Shown here: piece after piece, positions 3,641 to 13,079 of the stretch
Numbering within the stretch: the stretch's first letter is position 1
How the letters are laid out: each line of letters starts with the position of its first letter
Source: Bacillota bacterium
GTDB lineage: Bacteria > Bacillota > SHA-98 > Ch115
Direction: 5' to 3'
NCBI GenBank assembly: GCA_013178415.1
Contig: JABLXA010000002.1
Location: 1 to 64,000 of the forward strand
Length of the DNA: 64,000 bases
Position numbers and translations under genes: made by a program
The notes under the pieces: generated by a model
Seen by the model: the letters and a program-made list of their open reading frames with translations, nothing else
The model's database searches: none
What the model was told of the DNA's origin: nothing

Positions 3641-6075
3641 CAGGAATCATGATACTCCTTGATCTTCTCTGCGAATTCATCCAGTCTCTTTCGGACTAGA
3701 TAATTGATAGTGCCTTCCGGGTAGTTTCCATCTCGCTGAAGTTGACCGGCGGGCATGCCCGTCAGGACCTCTATCCCGTCATCAATAGTCTTGACAGAAT
3801 AGATATGGAATTTCCCGTCACGGACGGCTTCTACGACCTCAGGCTTGAGCATGAGATCCTTGACATTATCTTCAGGAATCAAGACCCCCTGCTCCCCAGT
3901 CAATCCCTTCGCCTTGCAGACCATGAAGAACCCCTCTATCTTTTCGTTTACCCCGCCAATAGCCTGCACGCGCCCCAGCTGGTCAACAGAACCAGTGACT
4001 GCAACTCCTTGCTTTATGGGCACTCCAGACAGACTTGACAGGAGGGCGTAAAGCTCCGTGCTCGAGGCACTGTCACCTTCGACACCTTCATAGAGCTGCT
4101 CGAAACAAATGCTGGCAGATAGGCTCAGGGGCCGTTCCTGGGCATATTTCGAACCGAGGTATCCGGTGAGCGTAAGAGCTCCCTTATCATGAATCCTGCC
4201 GCTCATCTTCACCTCCCTTTCAATATGGACCACCCCTGAATCTCCAACATATGTCCTGGCAGTTATACGCGATGGCCGTCCGAAGACATAATCCCCCACA
4301 TCCAGTATGGATAATCCATTGACCTGGCCTACCACAGCCCCCTCCGTTTCTATATAGATTATCCCCTTCTCTATGAGTTCGCGTATCTTCTCCTCCACCT
4401 TATTTGACCTATAGATTTTCTCCTCGATGGCCCTGTCTACATGTGACGCCGTTACAATTGGCGCCGAATCAGCTTCTGCCAACGCATTTGCTTCATATAT
4501 GATCTCAACTACATCGTTGAATCTGGTGGAGAGTTTATCTTGTTTCTCCAGGAGACGGGAGCTGTATTCAATGACCCGGGCGACGCCTGATCTATCGAAC
4601 GGCCGAAGATTCTGCCTTTTACACACTGATGCAATGAATTGCGCATACTTATTCATGTGCTCGGGGGTCCTATCCATTTCATCATCAAAGTCTGCTTTGA
4701 CTTTGAAATATTTCCTGAAGTCTTCGTCTAGGTGATACAGGAGTTGATAAAGATAAGGTGTCCCGATTAGAATGACCTTGACATCCACCGGAATGGGCTG
4801 CGGCTTCAAAGTCACCGTAGGAATGATCCGAAATTGCTCCCCTATGTTTTCGACCCGGGCTTCCCCATTTTTGAGGGTGCGTTTCAATGTATCCCAGGCC
4901 AGCGGGTCGAAAAGAAGGTCTCTGGCCTGAAGAATAAGGATGCCCCCATTTGCCCTGTGGATGGCTCCTGACCTGATCATGGTGAAATCAGTGAAGAATG
5001 TGCCCATTTGGCCTTTATATTCGATCTTGCCGAAGAGGTTGTAGTAGGTCGGGTTTGTCTCATATATTACCGGAGCTCCACGGGTCTCGGAATTGTTCAC
5101 GAACAGGTTCACGGTCAACCGCCTGAGGTAGCTCATCTCAGGTGAAGAACCGGGTTGAGCTGCTCTGTCGCCTGTTTCTCTGGAGGCATCTACGGCCTCG
5201 TCGCCTGATGCCCTTGAGATCTCAGCCCTAATCTGACCCAAGTTCCTTGGCAAATCTTCCCTAAGGGAATCCAAGTAGCTCGCTACAACTGGATAATCTT
5301 TGTATTTCTCCTGGATCCGATCTAGATGAGGGCCTATAGAATAAGATATGACTTCCCGGTCCAGCTGCTTTATCCTGAGAGTTCCTTCCCTTTCCAGCTC
5401 CCGTATTCGCCTGACTGACTCATTCATCTGAGCCTGTAGTCTCCGGTTCTTTTCCTGTATCGCTTGTCTGGCCTCCTGGGGCAGATTCTGAAATTCCTCC
5501 TGAGTAAGGGGTGAGCCATCTTCCTTTAGTGGAATCGTCACGATTCCTGCCGGGGTTTGATTCAGGGTGAACCCCTCCTGCTCGGCTCTTTTATGCAGCG
5601 TAAGGAGGGTTTCTTCTATCATACTATGAATTTCCTGTAGAATACTTGTTTTTTGTTTTTCATATTCATCGCTTTCAAATGCCCTTGGTATGACCTGCTT
5701 GAGATCCTCAACTAGGTCCCTCATATCTTCCCGAAACTGCTCCCCAACCCCCGCTGGAAGCCTCAAAGCCAATGGTACATCAGGTTCATGGAAATTATAT
5801 ACATAACACCAATCGTCAGGAATAGGCCTATTCTCGGCGAACTTTTTGGCTGCCTGCTGAACATAGGTGCTTCTACCGGTGCCGGTAGGTCCAGTGACGA
5901 AGATATTATATCCTGGGTTTCTCATTGCCAGCCCAAACTGAACGGCGCGCATGGCCCGTTCCTGGCCGATGATCTCATCCAGGGGAGGAAGCTCTTCGGT
6001 GGTCTGAAACGGAAGACATGATTGGTCACAATCATAGCGCAATTCGTCCGGAGACAACTCACGATAGCCAGCCAA
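3640..6075 (-). CDS. Lon-like ATP-dependent protease (LonB/LonC-type)
   Basis: About 811 residues. Numbered from the upstream ATG, the order is: a P-loop GPTGTGRS near residue 65; a long charged coiled-coil insert (about 120-300); the rest of the AAA module (about 340-570); and a C-terminal S16 protease domain. The catalytic dyad is visible as Ser674 in EGDSASS and Lys717 in GGVNEKIEG, 43 residues apart as in E. coli Lon. There is no Lon N-domain, so this is one of the shorter Lon relatives. Role: ATP-driven protein degradation, substrate unknown. Start: an ATG at 6090 would contain the GGAGGG Shine-Dalgarno inside its own first codons. The TTG at 6075 has that same GGAGGG seven bases upstream and is the better start. 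First gene of the 6075-1 operon. Confidence 0.9.
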   Translation of the reverse strand: MAGYRELSPDELRYDCDQSCLPFQTTEELPPLDEIIGQERAMRAVQFGLAMRNPGYNIFVTGPTGTGRSTYVQQAAKKFAENRPIPDDWCYVYNFHEPDVPLALRLPAGVGEQFREDMRDLVEDLKQVIPRAFESDEYEKQKTSILQEIHSMIEETLLTLHKRAEQEGFTLNQTPAGIVTIPLKEDGSPLTQEEFQNLPQEARQAIQEKNRRLQAQMNESVRRIRELEREGTLRIKQLDREVISYSIGPHLDRIQEKYKDYPVVASYLDSLREDLPRNLGQIRAEISRASGDEAVDASRETGDRAAQPGSSPEMSYLRRLTVNLFVNNSETRGAPVIYETNPTYYNLFGKIEYKGQMGTFFTDFTMIRSGAIHRANGGILILQARDLLFDPLAWDTLKRTLKNGEARVENIGEQFRIIPTVTLKPQPIPVDVKVILIGTPYLYQLLYHLDEDFRKYFKVKADFDDEMDRTPEHMNKYAQFIASVCKRQNLRPFDRSGVARVIEYSSRLLEKQDKLSTRFNDVVEIIYEANALAEADSAPIVTASHVDRAIEEKIYRSNKVEEKIRELIEKGIIYIETEGAVVGQVNGLSILDVGDYVFGRPSRITARTYVGDSGVVHIEREVKMSGRIHDKGALTLTGYLGSKYAQERPLSLSASICFEQLYEGVEGDSASSTELYALLSSLSGVPIKQGVAVTGSVDQLGRVQAIGGVNEKIEGFFMVCKAKGLTGEQGVLIPEDNVKDLMLKPEVVEAVRDGKFHIYSVKTIDDGIEVLTGMPAGQLQRDGNYPEGTINYLVRKRLDEFAEKIKEYHDS

Positions 6076-12545: not shown

Positions 12546-12916
12546 AATCAAAAGCCTCCTTCGATAGGGTAGATTCGGTAAAGATGACTCAATTCCTTCA
12601 TAAACCATCTTAGCCTGGCCAATTCAACTGGGAGAAAAGAGACTATATGGCATACTGCGACTGATGATAGGGTCGAACCAGTCCTATCCCCATACAATCG
12701 CTATCAGACCCCTCTAATCCCCTCAAAATATCTAACTGAGAATTACTACATGTGAAATATGTGTTCTACACTCTATAAGCGGAAATCCCGGAGAGGCGGC
12801 GACAGAAAGGAAAATCGCCGGGGATGTTGAATCTAGTATACTAGGGAAACTGATATACCCCAAGCATATATCATGCCAGTCGATCTCATCATGGGAAAAG
12901 CCCTGCTGGAACGAGG
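12546..12916. other. Divergent intergenic region before the CRISPR relic
   Basis: No gene seen. A perfect 12-base palindrome, CTAGTATACTAG, lies at 12833-12844 and could be a protein-binding site. Otherwise nothing recognisable. Together with the array that follows, it fills the space between two divergent genes. Confidence 0.4.
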
Positions 12917-13079
12917 GTTTTTAGTCTATCTACAAGGGATGGAAACCGCGATATCGTCGATGAGGCGCATAATCGCAGGCGCGTTTTTAGTCTACCCATA
13001 AGAGATAGAAAACCGGATGCGGACCGGGCGCCAATGGATGATGGATCACATTTCCGGCCCACCTATAGGGGCCGCAGAT
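12917..13079 (+). CRISPR. Decayed orphan CRISPR mini-array (2 clear repeats, 1 probable)
   Basis: Repeat 1 (12917-12946, 30 bases) starts GTTTTTAGTCTATCTACAAG and ends GATGGAAAC. Repeat 2 (12983-13013, 31 bases) starts GTTTTTAGTCTACCCATAAG and ends GATAGAAAAC. They differ at five positions plus one inserted A. The spacer between them (12947-12982) is 36 bases. Exactly 36 bases after repeat 2, at 13050-13079, a third, heavily mutated unit keeps ACCTATA and GGG in register (18 of 30 positions by my count). GTTTTTAG...GAAAC with 30-base repeats and 36-base spacers is the usual form of Firmicutes type I-B/III arrays. No cas gene is in the window, so it is an orphan and probably inactive. Confidence 0.65.

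Follow-up and report, generated by a model that had tools for sequence, protein, structure and literature searches.

The 64,000-nucleotide stretch of DNA analyzed here (the window, G000:C2:1-64000) carries a solitary array of three repeats and two spacers, which, judging from its sequence, is probably a relict satellite array of a type I-B CRISPR system, composed of a diverged leader and the three repeats and distantly related to a large array on contig C7 of the same genome. The two arrays resemble each other in repeat family, spacing and orientation. The best reading is that the window array is no longer adapting, and perhaps it is still transcribed. An earlier note on this DNA had described a decaying orphan CRISPR array; the underlying observation was confirmed as a whole and the interpretation was supported in part, in that the array is eroded but is not an orphan.

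All elements of the array lie on the + strand. The first repeat (R1, GTTTTTAGTCTATCTACAAGGGATGGAAAC, positions 12917-12946) is identical to the C7 consensus at 27 of 30 positions and has an intact 3' handle, ATGGAAAC. Spacer 1 (12947-12982, 36 nt) separates it from the second repeat (R2, GTTTTTAGTCTACCCATAAGAGATAGAAAA(C), 12983-13012), which matches the consensus at 25 of 30 positions and has an altered handle and one extra A. Thus, the two repeats of about 30 bases placed 36 bases apart, as originally noted, are indeed 30 bp each with a 36-nt spacer between them. Spacer 2 (13013-13049, about 36-37 nt) is followed by a terminal, strongly decayed repeat (13050-13079), the third unit for which about 60% identity had been claimed and for which we find 17/30. 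The distance between repeat starts is 66 bp from R1 to R2 and 67 bp from R2 to repeat 3, the latter still being in phase because of the extra A in R2. The locus therefore shows direct repeats with a regular period of 66-67 bp and unique spacers of regular length (36-37 nt).

Taken alone, the 17/30 identity of the third repeat is weak, as about a dozen segments per strand equal this value in 64 kb. The differences from the C7 consensus are, however, mainly transitions, in R1 (3/3) and R2 (4/5) as well as in repeat 3 (11/13), and when identity was combined with half a point per transition and both strands were scored, only 4 of 127,940 placements attained the value of repeat 3, including R1, R2 and repeat 3 itself. 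Because this combined score, with its transition bias, and the phase agree, we accept positions 13050-13079 as a credible decayed terminal repeat.

The C7 array comprises 70 repeats (GTTTTTAGTCTACCTATGAGGGATGGAAAC) at positions 129019-135400, near-identical to the window repeat, with 68 spacers counted, mostly of 35-37 nt. Sixty-nine of the 70 repeats are identical and one carries a single change; like the window array, the C7 array terminates in a degenerate unit. An IS110-family transposase gene (L033:7381-8724) is located inside the C7 array, with the same repeat continuing on both sides. A search of the 3.57-Mb genome (57 contigs) with up to 3 mismatches found the repeat outside the C7 array only at R1, and a looser pattern added only R2. 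In the window, the consensus with 3 mismatches yielded 1 match, versus 0 in 100 shuffles. In addition, the Rfam family CRISPR-DR2 (RF01315) matched R1 and R2 with E-values of 0.0065 and 0.042, both below the gathering score, so that the two repeats are linked to a cognate array by 27/30 and 25/30 identity and, below gathering, to a known repeat family.

These results bear on the possibility that the locus is a chance or dispersed repeat instead of a CRISPR array, to which we assign a negligible probability. There are just two good repeats, and a separate dispersed sequence lies immediately upstream, at 12698-12772. However, the repeat is absent elsewhere outside the C7 array, spacing and spacer length equal those of the C7 array, and a homologous leader directly precedes R1. 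The earlier note had proposed that copies scattered without spacing would reveal a dispersed element; instead, all copies found in the genome belong to the two arrays, and the absence of scattered copies together with the leader homology in effect refutes a dispersed element. The upstream sequence is an intergenic element of about 65 bp, with copies sharing 82% identity, also found at G000:C31:40206-40280, G000:C7:62-128 and L040 (G003:C21). It lies at two contig ends, and its C7 copy precedes a sigma-factor gene (Sigma70_r2) by about 170 bp.

The immediate neighbors of the window array encode DUF2284, PK_C, M1-like peptidase and ARMT1-like proteins, none of them Cas, in agreement with the earlier statement that cas genes are lacking nearby. 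For PK_C, the nearest named relatives are from Candidatus Fermentithermobacillaceae and other Bacillota metagenome assemblies (62-63% identity). The genome as a whole, in contrast, contains a complete type I-B operon on contig C32 (minus strand, cas6-8b-7-5-3-4-1-2), with Cas6b, Cas8b, Cas7b, Cas5b, Cas3b, Cas4b and Cas1b called by PADLOC and Cas2, at 3655-3918, by Pfam. Searching the genome for type I-B/III cas genes and arrays with the same repeat, as had been suggested, thus recovered both this operon and the 70-repeat sister array with its leader, and the 'orphan' designation fails genome-wide, cognate cas genes being present. The array is better termed solitary. A search of the first 20 kb of C32 detected no CRISPR array, so the I-B genes of that contig presumably serve both the C7 and the window arrays in trans. 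Two further systems were recognized in the genome: contig C11 has an I-C type locus and an array belonging to it, and contig C12 has a third cas1 locus, accompanied by a 36-bp repeat.

A leader, overlooked in the earlier note, adjoins the first repeat. Positions 12786-12916 (+ strand) align with the C7 leader over about 130 bp with 86 of 133 aligned columns identical (about 65%), and the alignment stops only a few bases short of R1. The alignment scored 72, whereas the best of 500 dinucleotide shuffles reached 38 and the best of 1,272 control stretches from the window reached 45. The sequence comparison places the upstream limit of the feature at about 12761, so that, leader included, it spans approximately 12761-13079. 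The most conserved block of the leader, AAGGAAAATCGYCNGGRNNGTYGAAT, occurs at exactly two sites in the genome (up to 2 mismatches), namely in the window and C7 leaders, and ends about 84 bp ahead of the first repeat in each array. This region includes a SigH-promoter-like motif, AAAGGAAAA-N11-GTTGAATCT (12806-12834, + strand). The SigH consensus is RNAGGAWWW-N11-RNNGAATWW; the C7 leader (L033:3911-3940) matches it perfectly and the window leader with one mismatch, and a spore SigH gene is present in the genome (C4:203003, 380 bits). The motif was not seen at the corresponding position of the G001, G016 and G004 leaders, and we therefore rejected it as a class-wide leader feature. A putative SigH promoter in both leaders would connect transcription of the CRISPR arrays with stationary phase or sporulation.

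The C7 leader starts with a palindrome, GTCGTCGACCCCCGG...CCGGGGGGTCGACGAC, which also occurs, with its pairing retained, in the leader of G001, a genome of the same family, and in that of G016, from the same class. The corresponding segment of the window (12761-12805, + strand) is homologous to the GTCGTCGAC...GTCGACGAC segment shared by the leaders of C7, G001 and G016, but has lost the pairing: RNAfold gave -11.4 kcal/mol for the window, versus -36.6, -28.8 and -23.7 kcal/mol for C7, G001 and G016, respectively. A pattern search for the palindrome identified one site each in G000 and G001, both at a CRISPR leader. No T run follows the palindrome, which is thus not an obvious terminator. The long palindrome, GTCGTCGACCYCC...GGGGTCGACGAC, was observed at the far end of the leader in three genera (G000:C7:128864-128907, that is, L033:3865-3908; G001:C5:564-607, L188; and G016:C307, L169), and its occurrence in this uncultured Bacillota lineage provides a modest clue to leader function that can be put to the test.

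The state of the repeats is consistent with erosion. When a spacer is acquired, the repeat next to the leader is duplicated. Whereas the C7 repeats are almost all identical, R1 differs from R2 at six positions, indicating that R1 was not copied by recent acquisition and that none has taken place at this locus for long. Identity to the C7 consensus falls with distance from the leader (27, 25 and 17 of 30). However, degenerate leader-distal repeats are normal (PMC4869251), and the C7 array end is also degenerate, so that this gradient is not special by itself. Better evidence, as far as sequence comparison goes, comes from the loss of pairing in the leader palindrome and from the divergence between R1 and R2. 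Accordingly, erosion as proposed earlier is supported by these two features, and the poor last repeat is what would normally be found at the leader-distal end.

Part of the divergence of the window repeats may, however, reflect lineage rather than decay. Position 18 is A in all three window repeats and G in C7, and two of the differences in R1, C17 and A18, recur in a repeat of G036, which belongs to another genus. Because A18 is present in all three repeats and C17 is common to G036, the window locus appears to be a separate lineage of the repeat family and not a fresh copy of C7. We rejected a recent copy of the C7 array, considering that the two arrays have no spacers in common, that all three window repeats carry A18 and that the leaders have diverged to the extent described above. 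By DNA similarity, the leader and array were absent from 40 relatives, including one genome of the same family and two of the same order. Residual constraint could account for the retained promoter-like block, for the intact R1 handle and for the 5' ends of R1 and R2, in which the first twelve bases show no change.

We infer that the array either diverged from the C7 lineage long ago or arrived with another I-B/III lineage, and that spacer acquisition then ceased, leaving the array to drift. If the leader promoter fires, Cas6 from C32 could produce a near-normal crRNA from spacer 1, given the intact ATGGAAAC handle, whereas the crRNA of spacer 2, with its altered handle, would be poorer.

An alternative is that the locus is a small working second I-B array, transcribed from its leader and processed by Cas6 in trans, with both spacers still immunizing the cell. 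Consistent with such activity, the leader and its promoter-like block are retained, the R1 handle is intact, the I-B cas genes look complete and short arrays remote from cas loci are common (PMC12814883). We nevertheless regard it as rather unlikely, because the repeats differ both from one another and from those of C7, the leader palindrome is lost, only two spacers are present, compared to 68 in C7, and searches against viruses and phages provided no recognizable targets. Indeed, exact 20-22-nt cores of spacers 1 and 2 were not found in IMG/VR, and comparison with phages returned only matches with E-values of about 4. The comparison with phages proposed in the earlier note thus yielded no close viral or phage match for either spacer. 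This result says little, since eroded spacers may have lost exact matches.

Within its own genome, spacer 2 had no match (first 21 nt, up to 3 mismatches), whereas spacer 1 has a 16-nt exact match of its 5' seed at C12:3807, with about 0.004 expected for that word. This match is one argument for viewing the locus as a regulatory mini-CRISPR comparable to CreR or CreA, in which partial complementarity of the guide would lead to repression of the cas operon or of a host gene. Degenerate repeats, two spacers and a preserved promoter-like block would also fit such a function, and CreR has been reported for type I-B (PMC13131331). However, the C12 match sits within a 1,363-aa coding frame and not in a promoter, partial self-matches of 14-15 nt among the other spacers hardly differ from those of reversed controls (174 spacers tested), and the window array is not adjacent to cas genes. 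Furthermore, no 8-nt seed of either spacer was found in the region upstream of cas6, upstream of the preceding gene, in either leader or in the upstream regions of the neighboring genes, including those of the DUF2284 and PK_C genes; in a CreTA/CrePA unit, the spacer would match the promoter of an adjacent toxin gene. The longest words shared with the cas6 upstream region or with that of the preceding gene were at most 10 nt and not 5'-terminal. A regulatory role is therefore highly unlikely, with no positive support for a CreR-like one, and we rejected self-targeting or a CreR guide, the sole 16-nt match of spacer 1 being within a coding frame and the other self-matches being near the controls. 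A still fainter prospect is that spacer 1, given its intact repeat handle and the 16-nt exact seed match, would guide the I-B effector to the coding region of the C12 gene (at 3807), tuning its expression, with the array being kept as a source of guides.

The 1,363-aa gene itself (L193:1727-5818; G000:C12, minus strand) matches parts of two spacers exactly, namely 16 nt of window spacer 1 and 18 nt of C7 spacer 59. Six of the 68 C7 spacers share 12-mers with this gene, versus 1 in reversed controls, but this comparison is post hoc and the seed position is inconsistent.

The relict satellite array is thus real but ordinary. Several arrays per cas locus, short remote ones included, are common (PMC12814883), making the window array a known kind of object. 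With an intact sister array elsewhere in the genome to which its palindrome, repeats and handles can be compared, the locus is a clear example of satellite-array decay, and it illustrates that an 'orphan' label drawn from a 64-kb window can mislead.

Among known systems, virus-borne mini-CRISPR arrays, such as those described in PMC6858448 and PMC8616872, likewise carry one or two spacers and host-like repeats and have no cas genes; the neighbors of the window array are, in contrast, metabolic or cellular, with no viral gene among those scanned. The CreR and CreA crRNA-like regulatory RNAs, reviewed in PMC12737573 and PMC13131331 and, for CreR, known from I-B systems, similarly consist of degenerate repeats around very few spacers downstream of a promoter-like block, whereas the window array has no partial match to a cas promoter, is not cas-adjacent and has no partner toxin gene seen among its neighbors. 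A minimal array in the same class (G016:C307; L190 / L169:1501-1583) consists of a leader followed by a complete repeat, a single spacer and a repeat with an internal deletion, GTTCTTAGTTGAAAACC, and adjoins genes resembling a type III (Cas10/Cmr) operon. The solitary or orphan I-F CRISPR4 arrays of E. coli (PMC8616872) are also small and devoid of local cas genes, but the window array has cognate cas genes in its genome, and no anti-cas spacer was found in the cas6 upstream and leader regions searched. As in arrays with degenerate leader-distal repeats (PMC4869251), the worst repeat comes last, although in the window the leader and the leader-proximal repeats are altered too. Finally, compared to the C7 array, the window array has three unequal repeats rather than 70 near-identical ones, an approximately 65% identical leader with a broken palindrome, and neither cas genes nor an insertion sequence at the locus, but it is alike to type I-B arrays with 30-bp GTTTTTAG...GAAAC repeats (Rfam CRISPR-DR2), of which C7 is an example, in repeat length and family, 35-37 nt spacers, orientation and leader.
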